64,000 nucleotides of DNA from Sphaerotilus microaerophilus (GTDB lineage: Bacteria > Pseudomonadota > Gammaproteobacteria > Burkholderiales > Burkholderiaceae_C), in the NCBI RefSeq assembly GCF_023734135.1, contig NZ_AP025730.1, positions 1,488,001-1,552,000 on the forward strand. The letters are read 5' to 3'. This document shows, piece by piece, positions 40,854 to 51,780 of this stretch. The notes beneath the pieces are model-generated. The model did no database searches, was not told the DNA's origin, and worked only from the letters and a program-made list of their open reading frames with translations. Position 1 is the first letter of the stretch. The number at the start of each line of letters is the position of its first letter. A program made the translations under genes and the position numbers.

Positions 40854-40940
40854 CCAGCGATCACCGCGGATCTGGCTTTGCCAGGCCGCCGGTGATGCCC
40901 CCTTGAGGGGGCGCGCGTCAGCGCGTACGGGGGTGGGTCA
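40854..40940 (-). repeat. Three-hairpin intergenic element, copy 1
   Basis: 87 bp filling the gap after livF; its last bases (GGGTCA on plus) contain the livF stop codon. Hairpin A: ATCACC-GCGG-AT-CTGGC, TTT, GCCAG-G-CCGC-C-GGTGAT (40860-40896). Hairpin B: GCCCCC-TTGA-GGGGGC. Hairpin C: CGCGC-GTCA-GCGCG. The order, loops TTGA and GTCA, and tail ACGGGGG-TGGGTCA match 50469-50559. Confidence 0.85.
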
Positions 40941-41747
40941 GGCCAGCCAGCGCTTGCGGCGCTTGTAAGACTTGACATCCTTGAAGCTCTTGCGATCCCC
41001 GCCGCCCACGCCGAGGTAGAACTCCTTGACGTCCTCGTTCTCGCGCAGGGCCTTGGCCTCGCCGTCCATCACGATGCGGCCGTTCTCCAGGATGTAGCCG
41101 TAGTCGGAGTACTTCAGCGCGATGTTGGTGTTCTGCTCGGCGAGCAGGAAGGTCACACCCTCCTTGGTGTTGAGGTCCTTCACGATCTCGAACACCTCCT
41201 CGACGATCTGCGGCGCCAGGCCCATGCTGGGCTCGTCGAGCAGCACCATCTTCGGGTTGGCCATCAGCGCGCGGCCGATGGCGCACATCTGCTGCTCGCC
41301 GCCCGAGGTGTAGGCCGCCTGGCTGCTGCGGCGTGTCTTCAGGCGCGGGAAGTAGTTGTAGACCTTCTCCAGCGTCTGGGCCACGGCGGCCTTGCCGTCG
41401 GTGCGCGTGTAGGCGCCGGTCATCAGGTTGTCCTCGATGCTGAGGTGGGCGAAGCAGTGCCGCCCCTCCATCACCTGCACCACGCCGCGGTTGACCATGT
41501 CCGAGGTGCTGAGCTTCTCGATGCGCTCTCCGCGCAGCTCGATGCTGCCCTTGGTGACCTCGCCGCGCTCGCCGGCCAGCAGGTTGCTCACGGCGCGCAG
41601 GGTGGTCGTCTTGCCCGCGCCGTTGCCGCCCAGCAGGGCGACGACCTTGCCCTCGGGCACCTGCAGGCTCACGCCCTTGAGCACCAGGATCACGTGGTTG
41701 TAGATGACCTCGATGCCGTTGACGTTCAGGAGGATGTTCTGACTCAT
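40938..41747 (-). CDS. livF: Branched-chain-type ABC transporter ATPase LivF
   Basis: A 269-residue ATPase. Walker A G-G-N-G-A-G-K-T-T, a Y-T-S-G-G-E-Q-Q-M signature and Walker B M-V-L-L-D-E-P identify a LivF-type subunit. It carries an extra segment (L-S-T-S-D-M-V-N-R and N-Y-F-P-R-L-K-T-R-R-S-S-Q-A) and a basic C-terminal tail, making it longer than E. coli LivF (~237). The stop codon lies inside a structured repeat. It is separated from the upstream binding-protein gene by a 215-bp run of hairpins. Confidence 0.9.
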   Translation of the reverse strand: MSQNILLNVNGIEVIYNHVILVLKGVSLQVPEGKVVALLGGNGAGKTTTLRAVSNLLAGERGEVTKGSIELRGERIEKLSTSDMVNRGVVQVMEGRHCFAHLSIEDNLMTGAYTRTDGKAAVAQTLEKVYNYFPRLKTRRSSQAAYTSGGEQQMCAIGRALMANPKMVLLDEPSMGLAPQIVEEVFEIVKDLNTKEGVTFLLAEQNTNIALKYSDYGYILENGRIVMDGEAKALRENEDVKEFYLGVGGGDRKSFKDVKSYKRRKRWLA

Positions 41748-41829
41748 GGTGTGCCCTCGTTGTGCATCGCTCTTCGAAACACGGCGCGCCGTGCTTGGAG
41801 GAGCGGGCTATTCAGGTGGATGGTGCGAG

Positions 41830-41962
41830 TGGGCCCGGTCTGCCGGTTGCTCCGGGCCCACGATCCGGCTTGCAGGCCGGATCGGTTCCCACGCTCGGGC
41901 TTGCAGGCCCGAGCGCATCGTCAGGCAGGAAAGAGTCTGCAGGGACTCGTTCCTGTCCTGAC
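41830..41962 (-). repeat. Cluster of four hairpins between the binding-protein gene and livF
   Basis: Stems: TGGGCCCGG/CCGGGCCCA (41830-41838, 41852-41860); GATCCGGC-TTGCAG-GCCGGATC (41862-41883); GCTCGGGC-TTGCAG-GCCCGAGC (41893-41914); and a ~17-bp imperfect stem GTCAGG..CAGGAA..GAGTC (41920-41962) directly after the binding-protein stop. The middle two share the loop TTGCAG and differ by paired changes. They may terminate most transcripts, or protect the upstream mRNA end so that binding protein is made in excess of LivF. Confidence 0.8.
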
Positions 41963-43294
41963 TCAGCCCTTGCAGTCCTCGGGGGTGCGCGGGGTCAGCT
42001 TCTTTTCTGCCACGTACTTCGCGGCGGCGGCCTTGACCATCGGCTTGAGGATGGTCTCGTCAGCCTGCAGCCAGTCGGAGGTGAAGTTCCACTTCTTGCC
42101 GTCCCAGGTGTGCACGCGGGCCCAGTTGGCGCCCATGTGGTCGGCGCAGGAGGTGGAGATCGGCCGCAGCACGCCGGCAAAGCCCAGGGTGTCGAGCTTC
42201 TTCTGGTCGAGCGCCAGGTTCTCCAGGCCCCAGCGGGTCTGTTCGCCGGTCATGACCTTGCCCTTGCCGTACTTTTCCTGGGCGCGCTTGACGCCTTCGA
42301 CGGCGAACATCGCGCTCATCATGCCGCGCATGTAGAGCACCTGGCCGACTTCTTCCTTCGGCCCGGTGCCCTGGCCCTTGCCATGCACTTCCTTCAAGAT
42401 GTCCTGGACGATCTTGGAATTGGGTTCCGCACCGTGCTGCATCGTCACGGCGTTGTAGCCCTTGGCGCCGTCGCCAACGTCCTTCACGTCCGGCTCGGCA
42501 CCGGCCCACCACACGCCGAACATCTTCTCGCGCGGGTAGCCGGTGGCCACGGCCTCCTTGATGGCGGTGGAGTTCATCACGCCCCAGCCCCACAGCAGCA
42601 CGTAGTCAGGCTTGCTCTGGCGGATCTGCAGCCAGGTGGCCTTCTGCTCCACGCCCGGCGCGGTCACGGGCAGCAGCTGCACGTCGAAGCCGTTGATCTT
42701 GGCGCGCTCCTGGACGGGCGGGATGGCTTCCTTGCCGAACGGGCTGTCGTGGTAGACCAGCGCGATCTTCTTGCCCTTGAGCTTGTCCAGGCCGCCTTCC
42801 TTCTTGGCGATGTGCTGGATCAGCGCGTCGGCGGCCACCCAGTAGGTGCCAGCGATCGGGAAGTTCCACTTGAACGCCATGCCGTCCTGGCTCTCGCTGC
42901 GGCCATAGCCGGCGGTGATCAGCGGGATCTTGTCGTTCGGGGCCTTCTCGGTCAGCGCGAAGGTGATGCCGGTGGACAGCGGCTGGAACACCGTGGCGCC
43001 CTTGCCCTTCAGGCGCTCGTAGCACTCCACGCCCTTGTCGGTGGCGTAGCCGGTCTCGCACTCTTCGTACGTGATCTTCACGCCGTTCATGCCGCCCTTG
43101 GCGTTGACGTACTTGATGTAGTCCACGTAGCCGTTGGCCCAGGGCACCCCGTTGGGGGCGTAGGCGCCGGTGCGGTACACCAGCACCGGGAAGAACTGCT
43201 CCTTGGCCTGCGCGAAGGCACTCGGGGTGGTGACCAGGCTGGCCAGACCGGCGGCGCTGAGGGCGGCGGCGGTGGCGAGGGTTTTCAACTTCAT
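41963..43294 (-). CDS. Periplasmic substrate-binding protein of Liv-type ABC transporter
   Basis: A 443-residue protein. ATG 43294 has GGAGG seven bases upstream and opens a Sec signal peptide M-K-L-K-T-L-A-T-A-A-A-L-S-A-A-G-L-A. The mature part has the type I periplasmic-binding fold seen in Peripla_BP_6 proteins (Y-V-D-Y-I-K-Y-V-N-A-K-G-G-M-N-G-V). It is longer than LivJ/LivK (~370) and belongs to the group linked with acyl-CoA ligases, so the ligand may be an aromatic or branched acid rather than leucine. It is the best-positioned gene for high expression in the operon. Confidence 0.88.
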   Translation of the reverse strand: MKLKTLATAAALSAAGLASLVTTPSAFAQAKEQFFPVLVYRTGAYAPNGVPWANGYVDYIKYVNAKGGMNGVKITYEECETGYATDKGVECYERLKGKGATVFQPLSTGITFALTEKAPNDKIPLITAGYGRSESQDGMAFKWNFPIAGTYWVAADALIQHIAKKEGGLDKLKGKKIALVYHDSPFGKEAIPPVQERAKINGFDVQLLPVTAPGVEQKATWLQIRQSKPDYVLLWGWGVMNSTAIKEAVATGYPREKMFGVWWAGAEPDVKDVGDGAKGYNAVTMQHGAEPNSKIVQDILKEVHGKGQGTGPKEEVGQVLYMRGMMSAMFAVEGVKRAQEKYGKGKVMTGEQTRWGLENLALDQKKLDTLGFAGVLRPISTSCADHMGANWARVHTWDGKKWNFTSDWLQADETILKPMVKAAAAKYVAEKKLTPRTPEDCKG

Positions 43295-43439
43295 GGTTGC
43301 CTCCAGAGGTGTGAACAGCACGCGGCGGTGCAGGTGGGAAATGGGAGCCCGGTCGGTTCGGATGCCGGGGTGATCAGGAAACGACAGGCCGGCGCACCGG
43401 CTGTCCGGGTTGACTCGGTTCGTGCGGAGCGCGCGGGGC

Positions 43440-44498
43440 TCAATGTGGGAAGGGCCACAGGCGCAGCTTTTCCTTGCCGATCGACCACAGTCGGGCCAGT
43501 CCGTGCGGCTCGACGATCAGGAAGAACACGATCAGCGCGCCGAACACCATGAAGGTCAGGTGCGAGGCCAGCGCGGTGTCGAAGCCCAGCGCCACCGTCA
43601 GGTTGTCCAGCACGATGGGCAGGATGATGATGAAGGCGGCACCGAAGAAGCTGCCCATGATCGAGCCGAGCCCGCCGATGATGACCATGAACAGCAGGTC
43701 GAAGGAGCGGTTCAGGTTGAAGGCGGCCGGCTCCCAGGAACCCAGGTGCACGAAGCCCCAGAGCGCGCCGGCCACGCCGACGATGAAGCTCGACACCGCA
43801 AAGGCGGTCAGCTTGGCGTACACCGGGCGGATGCCGATCACCGCGGCGGCCACGTCCATGTCGCGCATGGCCATCCACTCGCGGCCGATGTTGCTGCGCA
43901 CCAGGTTCTTGGCCAGCACGCCGAACACCACCAGGAAGGCCAGGCACAGCAGGTACTTCTGCACCGGGGTCTCGATCGGCAGGCCCAGCACGTTCAGGCC
44001 CGCCACGCTGACCGAACCCGAGGACGAGTCGTTGGTGAACCACTTGATGCGCAGGAACGCCCAGTCGACGAAGAACTGCGCCGCCAGCGTGGCCACCGCC
44101 AGGTACAGCCCCTTGATGCGCAGCGACGGGATGCCGAACAGCACGCCCACGCCGGTGGCGCACACGCCGCCCAGCAGCAGCGAGGCGATCAGCGGCATGC
44201 CCTCGATGCGCACCGAGAAGTTGTAGGCCGCGTAGGCGCCCACCGCCATGAAGGCGCCGGTGCCCAGCGAGATCTGGCCGCAGTAGCCCACCAGGATGTT
44301 CAGGCCCAGGGCGGCCAGCGACATGATCAGGAAGGGGATCAGGATCGCGCGGAACAGGTACTCGGGCGCCACGAAGGGCACGACGAAGGCGGCGAAGGCC
44401 AGCAGCAGCCCGATGGCAAGGCGGTCCTGCAGGATCGGGAAGATCTGCTGGTCGGCCCGGTAGCTGGTCTTGAACTGGCCGTTCTCACGGTAGAGCAT
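43440..44498 (-). CDS. livM: Branched-chain-type ABC transporter permease LivM
   Basis: A 352-residue permease with about ten hydrophobic segments and the LivM landmark L-N-I-L-V-G-Y-C-G-Q-I-S-L-G-T-G-A-F-M-A-V-G-A-Y. AGGAGA precedes the ATG. It pairs with LivH to form the membrane channel. The next gene downstream is the binding protein, 145 bp away. Confidence 0.92.
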   Translation of the reverse strand: MLYRENGQFKTSYRADQQIFPILQDRLAIGLLLAFAAFVVPFVAPEYLFRAILIPFLIMSLAALGLNILVGYCGQISLGTGAFMAVGAYAAYNFSVRIEGMPLIASLLLGGVCATGVGVLFGIPSLRIKGLYLAVATLAAQFFVDWAFLRIKWFTNDSSSGSVSVAGLNVLGLPIETPVQKYLLCLAFLVVFGVLAKNLVRSNIGREWMAMRDMDVAAAVIGIRPVYAKLTAFAVSSFIVGVAGALWGFVHLGSWEPAAFNLNRSFDLLFMVIIGGLGSIMGSFFGAAFIIILPIVLDNLTVALGFDTALASHLTFMVFGALIVFFLIVEPHGLARLWSIGKEKLRLWPFPH

Positions 44499-44525
44499 GT
44501 GGTTCTCCTCGTTCTTCTCTTCGGC

Positions 44526-45455
44526 TCAGACGCGGTCGATGATCTTCTCCCCGAACAGGCCCTGCGGCCTGACCAGGAGGAACACGAGGGCGAGGACGTA
44601 GGCGAACCAGATCTCGATGCCGCCACCCAGCATCGGGCCGATGTAGACCTCCGAGAGCTTCTCGCCCACGCCGATGATCAGCCCGCCGATGATGGCGCCC
44701 GGCACCGAGGTCAGCCCGCCCAGGATCACCACCGGCAACGCCTTGAGCGCCACCAGCGACAGCGAGAACTGCACGCCCAGCTTGCTGCCCCAGATGATCC
44801 CGGCCACCAGCGCGACGAAGCCGGCCACCGACCACACGATCACCCAGATGCGGCTGAGCGGGATGCCGATGGACTGCGCGGCCTGGTGGTCGTCGGCCAC
44901 CGCACGCAGGGCCCGGCCCGTGGCGGTCTTCTGGAAGAACAGGCTGAGCGCGCCGACCAGCGTCGCGGCGATCAGCGCTGCCGCCAGGTCCTCCTGGCTG
45001 ACCAGCACGCCGCCCTGGAACAGGCTCTCGAACAGGAAGATCGGGTCCTTGGGCAGGCCCACGTCGATCTTGTAGATGTCGCTGCCGAACAGCGTCTGGC
45101 CGAAGCCGTCCAGGAAGTAGGTGATGCCCAGCGTGGCCATCAGCAGCGTGATGCCCTCCTGGTTGACCAGCTTGCCGAGCACGAAGCGCTCGATCAGCCA
45201 GGCCACCGCGATCATCACGGCCATCGCCGCCAGGAAGCCGACCAGGTTGGCGACCAGCTTGCTGTCGGTGCCCAACAGCTTGGGCGCCCACTCGGCAAAG
45301 CGCGCCATTGCGAGCGCGGCAAACAGCACCATGGCGCCCTGCGCGAAGTTGAACACGCCGCTGGCCTTGAAGATCAGCACGAAGCCCAGCGCGACGAGCG
45401 AATACAGCATGCCCGTCATCAGGCCGCCGATCAGCGTCTCGAGAAAGAATCCCAT
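44526..45455 (-). CDS. livH: Branched-chain-type ABC transporter permease LivH
   Basis: A 309-residue permease with about eight membrane segments. G-M-L-Y-S-L-V-A-L-G-F-V-L-I-F-K-A-S-G-V-F-N-F-A-Q-G (in two parts) is the LivH N-terminal hallmark, and a second conserved part reads V-I-L-G-G-L-T-S-V-P-G-A. AGGAGA lies six bases upstream. It follows livG by 21 bp. Confidence 0.92.
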   Translation of the reverse strand: MGFFLETLIGGLMTGMLYSLVALGFVLIFKASGVFNFAQGAMVLFAALAMARFAEWAPKLLGTDSKLVANLVGFLAAMAVMIAVAWLIERFVLGKLVNQEGITLLMATLGITYFLDGFGQTLFGSDIYKIDVGLPKDPIFLFESLFQGGVLVSQEDLAAALIAATLVGALSLFFQKTATGRALRAVADDHQAAQSIGIPLSRIWVIVWSVAGFVALVAGIIWGSKLGVQFSLSLVALKALPVVILGGLTSVPGAIIGGLIIGVGEKLSEVYIGPMLGGGIEIWFAYVLALVFLLVRPQGLFGEKIIDRV

Positions 45456-45476
45456 CGAATGTCTCCTGCGCCGGGT

Positions 45477-46265
45477 TCAGTGCGACGTGCCGAGGTAGGC
45501 GCTGATGACCTCCTCGTTGTTGCGCACTTCGTCGGGCGTGCCGTCACCGATCTTCTTGCCGTAGTCCAGCACCACGACACGGTCGGAGATGTCCATCACC
45601 ACGCCCATGTCGTGTTCGATCAGCACGATCGTGGTGCCGAACTCGTCGTTCACGTCCAGGATGAAGCGGCACATGTCCTGCTTCTCCTCGACGTTCATGC
45701 CCGCCATCGGCTCGTCGAGCAGCAGCACCTGCGGCTCCATCGCCAGCGCGCGGCCGAGGTCGACGCGCTTTTGCAGGCCGTAGGGCAGGCGGCCCACCGG
45801 TGTCTTGCGGAAGGCCTGGATCTCCAGGAAGTCGATGATGTGCTCGACGTGGGCGCGGTGCGCGGACTCCTCGCGCTCGGCCGGCCCCCAGTGCAGCGCC
45901 TGCATGAAGAGGTTGCTCTTCATCTTCATGTTGCGCCCGGTCATGATGTTGTCGATCACGCTCATGCCCTTGAACAGCGCCAGGTTCTGGAAGGTGCGGG
46001 CCACCCCCATCTCCGCGACCTGCCGGCTGTTCATGTGGCTGAAGGTCTGACCACGGAAGGTGATCTTGCCCTCCTGCGGGGTGTAGACCCCGTTGATGCA
46101 ATTGAGCATCGAGCTCTTGCCGGCGCCGTTGGGGCCGATGATGGCGCGCACCTCGTGCTCGCGCACGTTGAAGCTGATGTCGGTGAGCGCCTTCACGCCG
46201 CCGAAGCGCAGGCTGATGTTCTGGACGTCGAGGATGACGTCGCCGATCTTCTTCTGCTCGCTCAT
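45477..46265 (-). CDS. livG: Branched-chain-type ABC transporter ATPase LivG
   Basis: A 262-residue ATPase from ATG 46265, overlapping the ligase stop (ATGA). Walker A G-P-N-G-A-G-K-S-S, a variant signature L-P-Y-G-L-Q-K-R and Walker B V-L-L-L-D-E-P-M-A-G-M-N are present. The signature differs from the classical L-S-G-G-Q form but is usual for LivG (L-x-Y-G-x-Q). It energises LivH/LivM with LivF. Confidence 0.92.
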   Translation of the reverse strand: MSEQKKIGDVILDVQNISLRFGGVKALTDISFNVREHEVRAIIGPNGAGKSSMLNCINGVYTPQEGKITFRGQTFSHMNSRQVAEMGVARTFQNLALFKGMSVIDNIMTGRNMKMKSNLFMQALHWGPAEREESAHRAHVEHIIDFLEIQAFRKTPVGRLPYGLQKRVDLGRALAMEPQVLLLDEPMAGMNVEEKQDMCRFILDVNDEFGTTIVLIEHDMGVVMDISDRVVVLDYGKKIGDGTPDEVRNNEEVISAYLGTSH

Positions 46266-48211
46266 GCAGCGCTCCGTACGGCCGGGAAGGTCTTGGCGTC
46301 GATGATCTTCAGCGTGGCCGAGACGCTGCCGCTGCGACCATCCTCGAACTTCACCGCCGTCTCGATGAACTGTTCGGACTTGCCCTCGTACAGCGCGTCG
46401 ACCAGCACCTTGTACTTGTCGTTGATGAAACCGCGCTTGACCTTGCGGGTGCGGGTCATCTCGCCGTCGTCGGCGTCCAGTTCCTTGTGCAGCACCAGGA
46501 AGCGGCTGATCTGGCTGCCCGCCAGCAGGGCGTCCTGCGCCAGGTCGGCGTTGACCTTCTCGACGCACTCGCGGATCAGTTCAAGAACCTGCGGCTTGCC
46601 GGCGATGTCGGTGTAGCCGGCGTAGGGCAGGTTGCGCCGCTCGGCCCAGTTGCCCACCGCCTCGAAGTCGATGTTGATGAAGGCGCAGACCTTCTCGCGG
46701 CCGTCGCCGAAGGCCACCGCCTCCTTGATGTGCGGGAAGAACTTCAGCTTGTTCTCGACGTACTTGGGCGCGAACATCGCCCCGTCGTTGGCGCCGCCCT
46801 TGATGCGGCCCACGTCCTTGACGCGGTCGATGATCTTCAGGTGTCCGCTGGCGTCGATGAAACCGGCGTCGCTGGTGTGGTACCAGCCCTCGGCGGTCAG
46901 CACCTCGGCGGTGGCGGCGGGGTTCTTGTAGTACTCCTTGAGCAGGCCGGGCGACTTGACCAGGATCTCGCCGTTCTCGGCCAGCTTGATCTCCACGCCG
47001 GCGATGGGCACGCCCACCGTGTCGGCGCGGGCCTCGTGGTCGGGCTGCAGGCAGACGAACACGGCGGTCTCGGTGCTGCCGTAGAGCTGCTTGAGGTTGA
47101 TACCGATCGAGCGGTAGAAGGTGAACAGGTCCGGACCGATCGCCTCGCCCGCCGTGTAGGCCACCCGCACCCGGCTGAAGCCCAGCGTATTGCGCAGCGG
47201 GCCGTAGACGAACAGGTTGCCCAGTGCGTACTTGATGGAGTCGACCAGGCCGATCGACTTGCCGTCCATGCGCGCCGGGCCCACCCGCTTGGCCACGTCC
47301 ATGAAGGCGTGGAACATCTTCTTCTTGATGGCGCCAGCGTCCTCCATGCGGATCATCACCGAGGTCAGCAGGCCTTCGAAGATGCGCGGCGGGGCGAAGT
47401 AGTAGGTCGGCCCGATCTCCTTGAGGTCGATCGTCACCGTGGCGCCCGATTCCGGGCAGTTCACCACGTAGCCGCAGGCCAGCCACTGTGCGTAGCTGAA
47501 GATGTTCTGGCCGATCCACGCGGGCGGCAGGTAGGCCAGCACCTCGTCGCGCTCGGTCAGGTTGTCGAACTTGGCGCCCGCTGAAGCCCGGTCGATGAGC
47601 GATCGGTGCGTGTGCACCACGCCCTTCGGGTTGCCCGTGGTGCCGGAGGTGAAGAACATGGCCGCCACGTCGCTGGGGGCAGTGCGCTCGATGGCCTGCT
47701 CCAGGAACTCGGGGTGCTGGCGCGCATAGGCCTTGCCTTCCTCGATCAACTGGTCAAGTCCGGACAGACCGGGTTCGTCGTACTTGCGCAGGCCACGCGG
47801 GTCGTCGAACCAGACGCGGGCGAGCTGCGGGCAGTGCTCGCGCACCTCCAGCATCTTGTCGACCTGCTCCTGGTCCTCGACGACCGCAAACCCGACCTCG
47901 GCATTGTTGAGCGGGAAGACGAACTCGGCGGCGACGGCGTCCTGGTACAGCGGCACGGGAATGGCACCCAGGCACTGCGCGGCCAGCATCGTGGCGCTCA
48001 GGCGCGGGCGGTTGTCGCCCACCACCACGATGTGCTGGCCGGGCTGCAGCCCGGCCGCGGCCAAGCCGCCGGCAATGGCGCGCACCATCTCCAGCAGGTC
48101 GTGCCAGTTCAGGCTCTGCCAGATGCCGTATTCCTTCTCACGCAGCGCCGCAGCCTGTGGACGCCGCCGGGCGTGGTCCAGCAGCAGGCGCGGGAAAGTC
48201 ATGTTCTGCAC
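46262..48211 (-). CDS. Long-chain-type acyl-CoA synthetase (AMP-forming)
   Basis: A 649-residue adenylating enzyme, first gene of the transporter operon. GTG 48211 is preferred because GGAGGAG lies about nine bases upstream; ATG 48202 is the alternative. The P-loop-like motif F-F-T-S-G-T-T-G-N-P-K-G and Y-G-S-T-E-T-A are standard, with W-Y-H-T-S-D-A-G-F near the C-terminus. Similar ligases beside Liv-type transporters activate imported aromatic or branched acids. With a second, PaaK-like ligase at the other end of the operon, two activation steps or two substrates are implied. Confidence 0.87.
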   Translation of the reverse strand: MQNMTFPRLLLDHARRRPQAAALREKEYGIWQSLNWHDLLEMVRAIAGGLAAAGLQPGQHIVVVGDNRPRLSATMLAAQCLGAIPVPLYQDAVAAEFVFPLNNAEVGFAVVEDQEQVDKMLEVREHCPQLARVWFDDPRGLRKYDEPGLSGLDQLIEEGKAYARQHPEFLEQAIERTAPSDVAAMFFTSGTTGNPKGVVHTHRSLIDRASAGAKFDNLTERDEVLAYLPPAWIGQNIFSYAQWLACGYVVNCPESGATVTIDLKEIGPTYYFAPPRIFEGLLTSVMIRMEDAGAIKKKMFHAFMDVAKRVGPARMDGKSIGLVDSIKYALGNLFVYGPLRNTLGFSRVRVAYTAGEAIGPDLFTFYRSIGINLKQLYGSTETAVFVCLQPDHEARADTVGVPIAGVEIKLAENGEILVKSPGLLKEYYKNPAATAEVLTAEGWYHTSDAGFIDASGHLKIIDRVKDVGRIKGGANDGAMFAPKYVENKLKFFPHIKEAVAFGDGREKVCAFINIDFEAVGNWAERRNLPYAGYTDIAGKPQVLELIRECVEKVNADLAQDALLAGSQISRFLVLHKELDADDGEMTRTRKVKRGFINDKYKVLVDALYEGKSEQFIETAVKFEDGRSGSVSATLKIIDAKTFPAVRSAA

Positions 48212-48307
48212 CGCGGGTCTCCTCCGGGCAAGTGGGTGGGCGTGTCCGGCTCCATCAGGACACCCCTCACGATGGAAGCGGATGCTACGCAGCTATTTGA
48301 CGCCAGG

Positions 48308-48325
48308 TTGTCGGCCTGACGACAA
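48308..48325. promoter_or_regulatory. Perfect dyad TTGTCG-N6-CGACAA, candidate Crp/Fnr-type operator 1
   Basis: A 6-bp perfect inverted repeat with a 6-bp spacer in the gap between the ligase operon and the divergent Crp/Fnr gene. Half-site and N6 spacing resemble the CRP/CooA layout (CooA: TGTCA-N6-CGACA) rather than FNR (TTGAT-N4-ATCAA). Confidence 0.6.
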
Positions 48326-48374
48326 TCCTAGGGACAGCCCGGGCAGGACTTTCCCAGGGGCTGAAGGGGTCTCT

Positions 48375-48392
48375 TTGTCAGGCGCTTGTCAA
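48375..48392. promoter_or_regulatory. Imperfect dyad TTGTCA-N6-TGTCAA, candidate operator 2
   Basis: Same 6-N6-6 geometry as the dyad 67 bp away, pairing at 5 of 6 positions and sharing the TTGTC/CAA outer bases. It lies ~50 bp before the regulator gene and could mediate autoregulation. Confidence 0.5.
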
Positions 48393-48439
48393 GTTGCCGG
48401 GCATCGGGGGCCATTTCAACGTGCAGCTTGATGCGTGTC

Positions 48440-49186
48440 ATGTCTCAGCCCAACCAGCCGCCTGAATCGCCCCTGCGGGACCATCACTCGCCGCTGCGCC
48501 GCCGCGCCCGGGCAGCCACCCGGGCCGAGCTGGACATGGTGCCCTGGCTCCAGGTGCTGGCGGCGCAGGAGCGTGAGCACGTCATCGAGCACCTGCAGGT
48601 GGCCGATGCCGAGGTGGGCGAATTCGTCTGCAAGATCGGCCGCTCCGCCAACTTCTGGTTCGGCGTGATCGACGGCCTGCTGAAGATGAGCAACGACGGC
48701 ACCACCAGCGCCTCGATCACCTTCACCGGGGTGCCGCCAGGGGCCTGGTTTGGCGAGGGCACGCTGCTCAAGCACGAGGTCTACCGCTACAACATCGAGG
48801 CCCTGCGGCGCAGCACCGTGGCGGGCCTGCCGCTGGCGAGCTTCGACTGGCTGCTCGCGCGCAGCATCCCCTTCAACCGCTACCTGATGCTGCAGCTCAA
48901 CGAGCGCCTCAGCCAGTTCATTGGCGCGCGGGAGATCGACCGGCTCAGCGACCCCGACACCCGCGTCGCCCGCGGGCTGGCGGCGCTGTTCCACCCGGTG
49001 CTCTACCCGGGCGTGGGCGAATTGCTGCGCATCACGCAGCAGGAACTGGGCTACCTGATCGGCCTGTCGCGCCAGCGCGTCAACGAGGCGCTGCGCAACT
49101 TGCAGGCCGTGGGCCTGATCCGCATCGAGTACGGCGGGGTGCGCGTGCTGGACCTGGGCGGGCTGCGCGGCTACCGTCCGGCCTGA
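48440..49186 (+). CDS. Crp/Fnr-family transcriptional regulator
   Basis: About 248 residues (ATG 48440; ATG 48431 is also possible, neither with a strong ribosome-binding site). The N-terminal half is a cyclic-nucleotide-binding-like beta-roll (V-I-D-G-L-L-K-M-S; P-G-A-W-F-G-E-G-T-L-L). The C-terminal winged helix is T-Q-Q-E-L-G-Y-L-I-G-L-S-R-Q-R-V-N-E-A-L-R-N-L, with an SRQR recognition helix start comparable to SRET of CRP. No FNR-type N-terminal cysteine cluster is seen. It is transcribed away from the ligase/Liv operon, with two matching dyads between them, so local control of uptake and activation is likely. The effector is unknown. Confidence 0.87.
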   Translation: MSQPNQPPESPLRDHHSPLRRRARAATRAELDMVPWLQVLAAQEREHVIEHLQVADAEVGEFVCKIGRSANFWFGVIDGLLKMSNDGTTSASITFTGVPPGAWFGEGTLLKHEVYRYNIEALRRSTVAGLPLASFDWLLARSIPFNRYLMLQLNERLSQFIGAREIDRLSDPDTRVARGLAALFHPVLYPGVGELLRITQQELGYLIGLSRQRVNEALRNLQAVGLIRIEYGGVRVLDLGGLRGYRPA

Positions 49187-49222
49187 CAAGGCGGCCGGCG
49201 CAGCACCGCAGCGCCCGGGCCG

Positions 49223-50218
49223 TCAGTGCACGAACCCCATCGGCGTGCGCCGCCCGCCCGCCTCGGGCAGGTCGGCCACCTCGATGGCCGTACGGCGCGC
49301 CAGCTTGGCGTTGCCAAAGGCGGTCATCCAGGCGCGCCGCATCTCCCGCGGGGCCAGCTCGGCCAGGCAGGCCAGCACGTCGTCGCCCGGGGCCTCCTCG
49401 AAGCGCCGGCCCCAGTCGTGCGCTGCGCGGATGCCCTGGTACAGCCGCAGCGCGATGAGGCGGGCGGCGTCGCGGTCGGGCAGGCGCACCTCGTAGACGT
49501 TCATGCGGTTCAGGATGGGCTCGGGAATCGCGCGCTCGTCGTTGGCGGTGGCCACCCAGATCACCTGGCTGGCGTCGATCGGCACCTCGGCGAACTCGTC
49601 GGTGAAGCTGTGTGCGGTGTCGTGCTCCAGCAGGCTGTAGAGCGCACCCAGCGGGTCGTAGGCGTGCTCGCCACCGGCCTTGTCGATCTCGTCGACGACG
49701 ATCACCGGGTTGGCGTACTGGCCCTCCACCAGCGTCTCGAACACCTTGCCCGGTCGTGCGCCCTTCCACTGCGAGCTGGCGCCCGACGGCACCCAGCCCG
49801 CGGTGAGCGAGCTCATCGAGACAAAGCCCATGCCGGTGCCGAGCAGCTGGGCCATCTCGCGGGCGAAGTGCGTCTTGCCCACACCGGGTGGGCCGAGCAG
49901 CAGGATGGGGGTGATTTCCAGGGCATCCCGGCTGTCCTCGCAGAGCGCGAGCTGGCGCTTCACGTCATCGAGCACCGGGTGGAAGTTGGGCAGCGTGTCA
50001 TAGAGGTGGTCCATCACCGGCAGCCCGCAGGGCTTGACCTGGAAGCGTTCCGGCCCCTTCTCCAGCATGCGCTCGTAGGTGGCACGCAGGTGCTCGTGTT
50101 CCTTTGCCGGCAGCTTGGTCAGGCGTTTCTCGACCTCGTCGGTGCGGTAGACGCGCCGCATCTGGGCGATCGGGATCGCAGGCTGGGCGCAGACCAGATC
50201 GGTGATCGGACGACTCAT
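49223..50218 (-). CDS. Lon-like AAA+ ATPase without protease domain
   Basis: A 331-residue protein from ATG 50218 (GGAGG six bases upstream). An N-terminal helical segment (residues 1-95; R-L-T-K-L-P-A-K-E-H-E-H-L) leads into an AAA+ module with Walker A G-P-P-G-V-G-K-T, Walker B V-I-V-V-D-E-I-D-K, sensor I W-V-A-T-A-N-D and an arginine near L-N-R-M-N. The pre-Walker region (Y-D-T-L-P-N-F-H-P-V-L-D) resembles the Lon AAA module, but the Ser-Lys protease domain and Lon N-domain are absent. Target and role are unknown. It is monocistronic and convergent with the Crp/Fnr gene. Confidence 0.8.
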   Translation of the reverse strand: MSRPITDLVCAQPAIPIAQMRRVYRTDEVEKRLTKLPAKEHEHLRATYERMLEKGPERFQVKPCGLPVMDHLYDTLPNFHPVLDDVKRQLALCEDSRDALEITPILLLGPPGVGKTHFAREMAQLLGTGMGFVSMSSLTAGWVPSGASSQWKGARPGKVFETLVEGQYANPVIVVDEIDKAGGEHAYDPLGALYSLLEHDTAHSFTDEFAEVPIDASQVIWVATANDERAIPEPILNRMNVYEVRLPDRDAARLIALRLYQGIRAAHDWGRRFEEAPGDDVLACLAELAPREMRRAWMTAFGNAKLARRTAIEVADLPEAGGRRTPMGFVH

Positions 50219-50468
50219 ACGGAACCTCCGGGGCACGTCGAGCGGATGGCTGGAACCATTGCAGCAGAGCTTGCCAGTGCCGACCCGGCGAAGTAACCGG
50301 GGAATGTCCCCCACCCGGATGGATGGGGCCGATCCCGGGGCCTCGACGCGGGGTCTGCACAGGCTGCGCTGCTCCCCCATCATGAAGCAGAGTCCGTGCC
50401 CGAGACGCCCTTGCAGGCATCCCAGCCTGCGACGCGGCCAAGTCGCCTCGGCTGCAGCGCCACTTCAC
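50219..50468. other. Intergenic region upstream of the AAA+ gene
   Basis: Together with the repeat that follows, 338 bp separate the AAA+ start from the gspF stop. No open frame with coding character, RNA gene or clear promoter was recognised in this part. It contains the AAA+ ribosome-binding site and some G-rich/C-rich runs near 50300-50345. Confidence 0.5.
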
Positions 50469-50559
50469 CCAGCAGCCACCGCGGATCCGGCTGGGCCGGT
50501 CCGCTGGTGGCGCCCCCCTTGAGGGGGGAGCGCCGTCAGGCGCTACGGGGGATGGGTCA
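50469..50559 (-). repeat. Three-hairpin intergenic element, copy 2
   Basis: 91 bp ending with the gspF stop codon. Hairpin A: GCCACC-GCGG-AT-CCGGC, TGG, GCCGG-T-CCGC-T-GGTGGC. Hairpin B: CCCCCC-TTGA-GGGGGG. Hairpin C: AGCGCC-GTCA-GGCGCT. Tail ACGGGGG-A-TGGGTCA. Compared with copy 1, several stem positions change on both sides so that pairing is kept. Confidence 0.85.
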
Positions 50560-51780
50560 CTTCACCCAGGTATTGAGCTGGATGATCGGCATCAGCACGG
50601 CCAGCACGATCAGCATCACCATCGCGCCCATCACCACGATCAGCAGCGGCTCCAGGATGGTGGCCAGCTGCATGGCGCGGCGCTGCACCTCGGCGCTGAG
50701 CTGGGTGGCGGCGCGTTGCAGCATCAGGGGCAGCTCGCCGGTCTGTTCGCCCAGCCGGGCGAACATCGACAGCAGGCCCGGGAAGCGCTTTTTGGCTGCC
50801 AGCGCGGAGGCCAGCGGTGCGCCCTCGCGCACCTGCACCAGCGCGTCCATCGCGTCGGCGCGCATCGCGGCGTTGGAGAGCGTTTCGGCCGCCGCCTGCA
50901 GCGCCTTCAGGATCGGCACGCCGGAGCCGGCGAGCATCGCCAGCGTGCCGGCAAAGCGTGCGGCGTTGTAGCCGCGTGCCAGCTTGCCCACCAGCGGGAA
51001 GGTGAGGAAGAGCGCGTCGAGCTGCTCGCGCGTGGCGGCATTGCGCCGTGCCACCACCAGCAGGCCCACGCCGCCGGCGATGGCCAGCGCCAGCAGCCAG
51101 CCCCAGCCGCGGATGAAGTCGCTGATGGCCAGCATCGCCACGGTCAGGAAGGGCAGCGCGCGCTTGCCGCCGGCAAAGACCTGCGCCACCTGCGGCACCA
51201 CGTAGGTGACCAGGAAGACCACGATGACGATCGCCACGCAAGAGACGATGGCCGGGTAGAGCGCCGCGCCGATCAGCTTGGCCTTGAGCGCCTGGCGCTC
51301 CTCCAGGTCGTCGGCGAGCTTCTCCAGCACGCGGCCGAGCTGGCCGCTCTGCTCGCCCGCGGCCACCACGGCGCGGTAGACGTCGTCGAACTCGCGTGGT
51401 GCGGCGCCCAGCGCGCGGGCAAAGGGCGAGCCGGCGTTCACCTCGGCGCGCAGGTGCGCCAGCAGCTCGCGCTGGCGCGGGTCCTCGGCCTCCTCGGCCA
51501 GCGCGGTCAGCGAGCGCTCCAGCGGCAGCCCGGCGCTGACCAGGCCGGCGAGCTGGCGCGTCCAGATCGCCAGGGTGGTTGAGCTGTAGGCGCGCTTGCC
51601 GCGCCGTAGCGCGGCCGGGCCGTTGCCGGCGGGCGCATCGCCGGCCACCGGCAGCACCGCCAGCGGCACCAGGTCGCGCGCGCGCAACTGGGCGCGCACC
51701 GCCTTGGCGTTGTCACCTTCGAGCAGGCCGGTCTGCGTCTTGCCGGCAGCATCGAGCGCTTCAAATCGATAGGCAGGCAT
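50557..51780 (-). CDS. gspF: Type II secretion inner-membrane protein GspF
   Basis: A 407-residue polytopic platform protein. The N-terminus P-A-Y-R-F-E-A-L-D-A-A-G-K is typical, followed by two T2SSF domains (around residues 70-195 and 270-395), each ending in membrane helices. It recruits the GspE ATPase and drives pseudopilus assembly. It is the last gene of the gsp operon; its stop lies inside the structured repeat. Confidence 0.95.
   Translation of the reverse strand: MPAYRFEALDAAGKTQTGLLEGDNAKAVRAQLRARDLVPLAVLPVAGDAPAGNGPAALRRGKRAYSSTTLAIWTRQLAGLVSAGLPLERSLTALAEEAEDPRQRELLAHLRAEVNAGSPFARALGAAPREFDDVYRAVVAAGEQSGQLGRVLEKLADDLEERQALKAKLIGAALYPAIVSCVAIVIVVFLVTYVVPQVAQVFAGGKRALPFLTVAMLAISDFIRGWGWLLALAIAGGVGLLVVARRNAATREQLDALFLTFPLVGKLARGYNAARFAGTLAMLAGSGVPILKALQAAAETLSNAAMRADAMDALVQVREGAPLASALAAKKRFPGLLSMFARLGEQTGELPLMLQRAATQLSAEVQRRAMQLATILEPLLIVVMGAMVMLIVLAVLMPIIQLNTWVK

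Follow-up and report, generated by a model that had tools for sequence, protein, structure and literature searches.

Intercistronic repetitive extragenic palindromic (REP) sequences and bacterial interspersed mosaic elements (BIMEs) of the malE-malF type place hairpins in the operon gaps of Escherichia coli, where they protect the upstream mRNA. The mycobacterial interspersed repetitive units (MIRUs) of Mycobacterium tuberculosis, which are 77-101 bp long, are found at stop codons within operons, oriented like the genes and sometimes arranged in tandem. MIRUs insert at overlapping stop/start DTGA sites with TGA at both ends, and they contain a small open reading frame (ORF) that overlaps its neighbours. 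Here we describe a three-hairpin repeat that lies at the 3' ends of genes in Sphaerotilus microaerophilus. The repeat was recognized in two copies, A and B, directly 3' of livF and of gspF, in a 64,000-nt stretch of the genome (RefSeq assembly GCF_023734135.1, contig NZ_AP025730.1, positions 1,488,001 to 1,552,000, forward strand), which we call the window.

The main text of PMC3733652 describes the GTAG/CGTC REPs as multicopy palindromes located close to the 3' ends of genes, where the flanking ORFs are co-directional or convergent. According to the same text, GTAG REPs often supply a TAG stop codon, recB of two Xanthomonas species contains REPs at about the same site, and an untagged REP-like family occurs in Bordetellae (its reference 64). 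A passage of PMC12306157, citing others, states that E. coli REPs less than 16 nt from the stop codon lower translation and stall ribosomes; of the 4,072 E. coli REPs counted in that paper, only 446 are no more than 15 nt from a stop codon. PMC2817692 includes a passage on the betaproteobacterium Thauera, which has a Pseudomonas-like REP-associated tyrosine transposase (RAYT).

Results

The element in the window and in the genome

A preliminary description of the window had proposed that a covarying three-hairpin element supplies the stop codons of livF and gspF. Both copies are real and lie on the same strand, all three stems are paired in both with the stem changes that had been listed, and the TGA of each gene is the element's first TGA. 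The features, in coordinates of the window, are as follows (R1 is the covariance model described below).

40854..40941, minus strand: element copy A, 88 nt, directly 3' of livF (R1 match of 88.2 bits; blastn)
40938..40940, minus strand: TGA stop codon of livF, the first TGA of copy A (ORF, sequence)
40912..40925, minus strand: hairpin 1 of copy A, CGCGC-TGAC-GCGCG (fold, sequence)
40898..40911, minus strand: hairpin 2 of copy A, CCCCC-TCAA-GGGGG (fold, sequence)
40860..40896, minus strand: hairpin 3 of copy A, ATCACC...GGTGAT, inner stem CTGGC/GCCAG (fold, sequence)
40938..41747, minus strand: livF-like ABC transporter ATPase gene upstream of copy A (ORF; best NCBIfam match LivF, below its cut-off)
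50469..50559, minus strand: element copy B, 91 nt, directly 3' of gspF (R1 match of 95.5 bits; blastn)
50557..50559, minus strand: TGA stop codon of gspF, the first TGA of copy B (ORF, sequence)
50529..50544, minus strand: hairpin 1 of copy B, AGCGCC-TGAC-GGCGCT (fold, sequence)
50513..50528, minus strand: hairpin 2 of copy B, CCCCCC-TCAA-GGGGGG (fold, sequence)
50475..50511, minus strand: hairpin 3 of copy B, GCCACC...GGTGGC, inner stem CCGGC/GCCGG (fold, sequence)
50557..51780, minus strand: gspF, upstream of copy B (ORF; TIGR02120 GspF above cut-off)
50461..50472, no strand: 12-bp direct repeat CACTTCACCCAG, left copy flanking copy B (sequence)
50558..50569, no strand: 12-bp direct repeat CACTTCACCCAG, right copy flanking copy B (sequence)

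On the gene strand, copies A and B read TGA, a C-rich linker and then three hairpins. The general build is a stop codon, the C-rich linker, hairpin 1 (of the type GCGGC-TGAC-GCCGC), hairpin 2 (CCCCC-TCAA-GGGGG) and hairpin 3 (up to 16 bp), in about 88 nt. The CCCCC of the linker might form a switch by pairing with the 3' arm of hairpin 2. The CACTTCACCCAG repeat around copy B shares bases with the 3' end of the element itself and with the final codons of gspF. No Rfam family matched the window at gathering scores or the loci L001, L009 and L011 at E<=1.

The genome of 6.06 Mb was then searched as a whole. With blastn, copy A matched at least 29 places (among the best 40 of more than 100 candidates) and copy B at least 40 (the best 40 of 111). 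The covariance model R1, built on an alignment of 33 copies from this genome (A1, from which the partial copy L032 was excluded), gave at least 48 matches at E<=1e-3 and at least 53 at E<=1 (among the best 150 of 11,787 candidates). Further copies, on which the preliminary description had made its proposal depend, were thus found, with stem covariation and a preference for gene ends. Three partial matches, whose upstream genes are sense and 70-98 nt away, were removed to give a full-length set of 45 copies. After a gltB-like ORF of the same genome (L042:11719-11806) there is also a very divergent three-hairpin element of 26 bits, which begins at the last base of the stop codon; judging by this copy, the family may be wider than R1 detects.

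The element is anchored at stop codons in the sense direction

Genes were called by a purpose-built codon-usage caller trained on stretches of the same genome, by which seven random 20-kb controls were 86.7% coding. The upstream gene was on the same strand as the element at all 48 matches, and in 42 of the 45 full-length copies the element started between -8 and +7 nt relative to where that gene ends (mean, -2.0; standard deviation, 3.5). The chance of a random strand position falling in such a 16-nt interval is about 0.005. Whichever stop codon was used, hairpin 1 began about 14 nt (standard deviation, 3.5) past it. These results bear out the strand bias and gene-end preference anticipated earlier. 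Two of the remaining three copies have the stop codon of the gene in the hairpin-1 loop, and their genes, named by eye, resemble those for 3-hydroxy-3-methylglutaryl-coenzyme A (HMG-CoA) lyase and a polyhydroxyalkanoate (PHA)-granule protein. The last copy lies in frame inside recB (TIGR00609 above cut-off) and is still sense.

In 14 of the 45 copies (11 offset by -4, that of gspF and the two with the stop in the loop), the gene ends with the TGA of the element itself; in the others, the gene stops a few nucleotides before that TGA or elsewhere in the linker. The proposal that the element supplies the stop codon therefore holds for livF and gspF and fails as a general rule. Stop codons in the 42 anchored copies were TGA in 37, TAA in 4 and TAG in 1, against 131 TGA, 4 TAA and 5 TAG in 140 control genes. 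Since this usage matches the background, the position and not the codon is conserved, and a UGA-specific role was rejected because TAA and TAG are used too and TGA is not enriched. TGA stands at the 5' end of the element in 16 of the 33 A1 rows (counted by eye), and NTGA follows the 3' end in 11 of the 45 copies.

The same position recurs in relatives

We analyzed best-hit loci of relatives, one per genome (43 of 45; two of odd length were skipped). The element was sense in 41, antisense in one and without an upstream gene in one, and it lay within 10 nt of the stop codon in 37. Two high-copy genomes of the same family were similar: among 17 copies each, 14 were sense and 13 within 10 nt in G149, and 15 were sense and 13 within 10 nt in G032, one of whose loci is shared with the 43.

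In 80 public livF loci, R1 gave 43 matches at E<=0.1, of which the four weakest were dropped. The 39 analyzed were sense in 33 of the 34 cases with a called upstream gene, with 22 of 39 within 10 nt of the stop codon and 31 of 39 between -25 and +30 nt. The element follows livF at -8 to +23 nt in 13 of the 80 loci, including those of Rubrivivax benzoatilyticus, Variovorax guangxiensis and Acidovorax facilis, and at 82 nt in one more. In 15 of the 80 it follows the gene preceding livF, probably livK (once at 80 nt), and single copies follow livM-, livH- and ligase-like genes (names inferred from the operon in the window).

The family was sampled by 299 genomes from 141 genera; the element turned up in 213 of these genomes and 112 of these genera (among the best 14 candidates per genome). 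In a first draw, 26 of 60 genomes carried it, with none of 24 genomes from other families; in an order-wide draw, 10 of 250 genomes did, four of them outside the family and three of these multicopy in one other family (among the best 17 candidates per genome). The nearest public relatives by livF are Rubrivivax, Paucibacter, Roseateles and Variovorax, which suggests that the family concerned is the Comamonadaceae/Sphaerotilaceae group within Burkholderiales. On plasmids, the element was found six times, in five records from Variovorax, Diaphorobacter and Methylibium, and the phage sequences searched gave no match. Genomes of another family of the order contain head-to-tail arrays of the element (G538:C15:34927-35383 and G403).

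Stem arms change in pairs

In A1, 96.3% of the 857 cells are paired and nine pairs are changed on both sides. There are 61 double-changed cells compared with 17.8 in shuffled alignments (none of 500 reached 61) and at most 6 in slid-structure controls; one of five measures, further pair types, was not above the shuffles (14 compared with 14.3; 403 of 500 reached it). In a larger alignment of 113 sequences from the window and relatives (A2), there are 345 double-changed cells compared with 97.4 after shuffling, and all five measures beat 500 of 500 shuffles; this alignment was fitted to R1 and hence is biased towards the structure of the model. The covariation is a sign that the arms are kept complementary; that RNA is the selected form does not follow from it.

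The element amplifies within lineages and inserts

Among genomes of the genus that are at least 99% complete, copy number ranges from 0 (G001, G006, G009 and G011) to 40 (G012) and 48 (S. microaerophilus, G000). Of 94 copies from four genomes, a set that excludes two divergent copies of G149, 92 had their nearest neighbour in the same genome, with identities of 0.67-0.87 within and 0.61-0.67 between genomes. The element amplifies lineage by lineage, and simple vertical retention of each copy is not favoured, given nearest neighbours within the same genome. Among 129 upstream proteins, 18 pairs nonetheless matched between genomes, six above 55% identity.

Three genes have relatives without the element. 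For recB, the matches to many related proteins are interrupted around residues 738-774 of the S. microaerophilus protein. At this place 12 relatives (L383-L394) have a linker of about 4 to 39 residues without the element; in S. microaerophilus the linker is 38 residues long, and about 29 of these come from the element (L230:3001-3088), which is read in frame with its stops absent. The exact insertion junctions cannot be drawn because linker length varies. The HMG-CoA-lyase-like gene ends ...GLPKT+LTHPRCG (...GLPKTLTHPRCG), with its last codons and stop from the element; three relatives end ...GLPKTLLTA, ...GLPKTLLTACA and ...GLPKTMLSA, and a scan of 13 homologous loci (L413-L425) detected no element. 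Nor does one follow livF in the close relatives L092, L093, L095 and L098. Relatives without it at all three genes show that the element inserts. Target-site duplication as a rule was not supported beyond a weak excess, though copy B has its 12-bp flanking repeat, and no terminal inverted repeats, which together with a constant target duplication mark miniature inverted-repeat transposable elements moved by DDE transposases, were seen by eye.

These observations uphold the earlier suggestion of a mobile, REP-like 3'-end element: there are many copies, they prefer gene ends on one strand, and relatives lack the insert. We are confident that the element is non-autonomous, REP-like and mobile.

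A second repeat family

We also observed a second repeat family (GGCCCCCACGCTCC...CCCCCGAGGGGGC...CCTTGGGGCGGCCCGGC; for example, G123:C28:272506-273009, loci L276-L305), with matches in 105 of 120 genomes at E<=1e-3, some of which may belong to the first family. By eye it resembles the element in its C-rich linker, CCCCC-GA-GGGGG hairpin and large third hairpin; it differs in forming 84-bp head-to-tail arrays and in not being consistently anchored at stop codons. With the same gene caller, by which many loci lie inside called ORFs, and with three odd-length loci skipped, the upstream gene was sense in 10 of 27 loci and the repeat started 0-40 nt after the gene in 4 of 27.

Discussion

Our best explanation overall, to which we give an even chance, is a non-autonomous REP-like mobile element that has become fixed at gene 3' ends, where it likely protects the upstream cistron or insulates the next one. 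A role of the element as RNA, taken by itself, is a tentative proposal that we hold somewhat below even. The distance from the stop codon to the first hairpin is constant, while the stop codon and the hairpin sequence are not, which points to an act linked with the terminating ribosome or with the place where the translated mRNA ends. Given the size of the ribosome footprint, a spacing of about 14 nt would put hairpin 1 just past the edge of a terminating ribosome. The element would then form a compact RNA block immediately after the last codon. In operons, it would most likely shield the upstream cistron from 3'-to-5' decay and may fill the untranslated gap, excluding Rho and scanning ribosomes; the relative expression of upstream and downstream genes could be set in this way. 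An alternative act at the terminating ribosome would be slowed release.

Several observations weigh against this explanation. In G403, which belongs to another family of the order, 14 of 17 units were sense and only 6 of 17 lay within 25 nt of a stop codon; most of the others resemble, by eye, later units of head-to-tail arrays, and three are in antisense surroundings. Folding of the sense strand was not consistently stronger than that of the antisense strand. The sign of target-site duplication was weak (mean longest shared flank word, 4.82 compared with 4.49, reached by 5 of 200 shuffles), and the operon bias was not significant (a same-strand gene came next for 36 of 45 copies and for 61 of 95 controls, p = 0.077; median gap of about 50 nt). 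Wobble pairs were scarce, with 4 G-U against 8 A-C mismatches among the 857 cells of A1 and 5 against 4 in 47 rows from the best-hit loci of relatives. In two of the three sets, then, G-U pairs are as rare as A-C, a pattern that does not speak for selection on RNA alone. Selection on RNA, one of the two forms suggested earlier, is only one possible reading.

Because G-U is no commoner than A-C in the genome's own set and in the best-hit loci, selection on a DNA hairpin or arm-templated correction may also have kept the arms complementary. If hairpin-templated correction during replication did so, with no selection on the fold, intermediates should be scarce on both strands, as they are in these two sets; in A2 the G-U cells outnumber A-C by 56 to 14, though 21 of the 56 sit in one pair, and correction leaves the stop anchoring and sense orientation unexplained. 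We consider it unlikely. A purely selfish repeat, for which landing at 3' ends is harmless thanks to its own TGAs and which persists there by survivorship with no benefit to the host, would fit the lineage-specific amplification and patchy presence. It would also fit the TGAs noted above at the 5' end, after the 3' end and in the hairpin-1 loop (the stop codon in two copies), together with the absence of in-frame stops from the recB copy. Such a repeat ought to be tolerated antisense and farther from the stop as well, yet every match is sense and nearly all full-length copies lie within 8 nt, although same-strand gaps in the controls have a median of 73 nt; we judge this explanation, too, to be on the unlikely side. 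Strong GC hairpins straight after stop codons, nine of the 45 copies being between convergent genes, recall a transcription terminator or attenuator at operon ends. No T-run of at least 4 occurs in the 15 nt after hairpin 3, or antisense after hairpin 1, in any of the 45 copies, convergent sites are not enriched (9 of 45 compared with 34 of 95 controls), and another co-directional gene usually comes next, in the liv operons likewise. The intrinsic terminator was thus rejected for want of a U-tract, the termination control suggested earlier did not hold in that form, and a terminator or attenuator of any kind is quite improbable.

As for how the element moves, dispersal by a RAYT (a Y1 transposase) with BIME-like arrays would be in keeping with the GTAG REPs, which are also found at 3' ends, can supply a TAG stop codon and occur inside recB (main text of PMC3733652). 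For each of the two Y1_Tnp genes in the S. microaerophilus genome, the best match is to the REP-associated tyrosine transposase model, below its cut-off. Against this, only one of the Y1_Tnp loci scanned (30 of the 48 matches listed) has an element nearby, of 30 bits and 1.1 kb from the gene, and five other matches near such loci, at E 0.04-0.9, are at chance level; near the two S. microaerophilus genes there is only a 26-bit element 5 kb away besides chance-level matches. Y1_Tnp matches occur in 25 of 29 genomes, usually one, regardless of element copy number, and none at E<=1e-3 was found in G032 (at least 73 copies), G023 (37), G002 (20) and G029 (2). GTAG precedes hairpin 1 in only 5 of 33 A1 rows (counted by eye), so there is no conserved tag, and opposed pairs are absent from the S. 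microaerophilus genome; one was found in G149 (L351), and the G403 arrays are head-to-tail. With neither linkage nor co-occurrence in its favour, the associated transposase envisaged earlier did not emerge as a RAYT from the loci scanned, RAYT dispersal is extremely unlikely, and the mobilising enzyme is probably not a Y1 (RAYT/IS200-like) transposase. Insertion itself might instead be directed sense at stop codons, for example via mRNA or the translation-termination complex (insertion at the RNA level, then copied into DNA), in which case the mobile element would recognise gene ends. The recB copy, off the stop and yet sense, fits an mRNA-directed route; we nevertheless regard such directed insertion as very unlikely.

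Two further observations concern transposases. G027 has 20 Y1_Tnp matches, three with an equal score of 152.3 bits, compared with a single gene in most relatives, a surplus that may reflect an IS200-like or RAYT expansion. One plasmid match to the element lies inside an annotated Methylibium 'transposase', which by eye is presumably an IS66-like orfA remnant and not the cognate enzyme.

The gathering of REPs at gene 3' ends has long been known, and whether tolerance, targeting or function is its cause is a standing question. The present element offers a near-deterministic position and direction over two hundred genomes, without sign of a RAYT, and the same gene (livF, livK or recB) occurs both with and without it. 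With these features the question could be tested in cultured Acidovorax, Variovorax or Rubrivivax strains. If functional, the element would be a layer of 3'-end gene control left unmarked by Rfam-based annotation of this bacterial family.

Its novelty has to be set against what is described. The main text of PMC3733652, by word search, does not mention Burkholderia, Acidovorax, Variovorax, Delftia, Leptothrix, Methylibium or Polaromonas; the passages of PMC2817692 that were consulted do not mention Acidovorax, Burkholderia or Delftia, and name Variovorax once, not as a REP carrier. No description of the element was found in the titles or abstract openings of open-licence papers. Bordetella belongs to the same order as the hosts of the element. 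The Bordetellae family, also REP-like without a conserved tag and known here by the citing passage alone, could be related, which bears on novelty.

The element is like MIRUs in its length and in lying within operons at stop codons in the sense direction, whereas for MIRUs no three-hairpin fold is known to us and their host bacteria are unrelated. TGA was observed at the 5' end of the element in about half of the A1 rows and after the 3' end in a smaller share of copies, and no general duplication was seen. With the GTAG/CGTC REPs of E. coli, Pseudomonas, Stenotrophomonas and other bacteria the element shares being multicopy, extragenic and at 3' ends, the ability to overlap or supply a stop codon, and an occurrence inside recB. 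A GTAG/CGTC REP is a single palindrome of 20-40 bp with a tag, whereas the element has about 88 nt and three hairpins without a conserved GTAG. Unlike those REPs, it showed no RAYT link in the loci scanned, is exclusively sense in the S. microaerophilus genome and, in 42 of 45 copies, begins no more than 8 nt from the stop codon; the fraction that PMC12306157 gives for E. coli REPs within 15 nt is far smaller. Opposed pairs (BIMEs) are found in many but not all REP families, whereas the 48 copies of this genome are uniformly sense. The 3'-end habit of REPs was thus already known; what differs here, besides the absence of a tag and of a RAYT link, is the family, the size, the three-hairpin build, the sense-only direction and the tight spacing.

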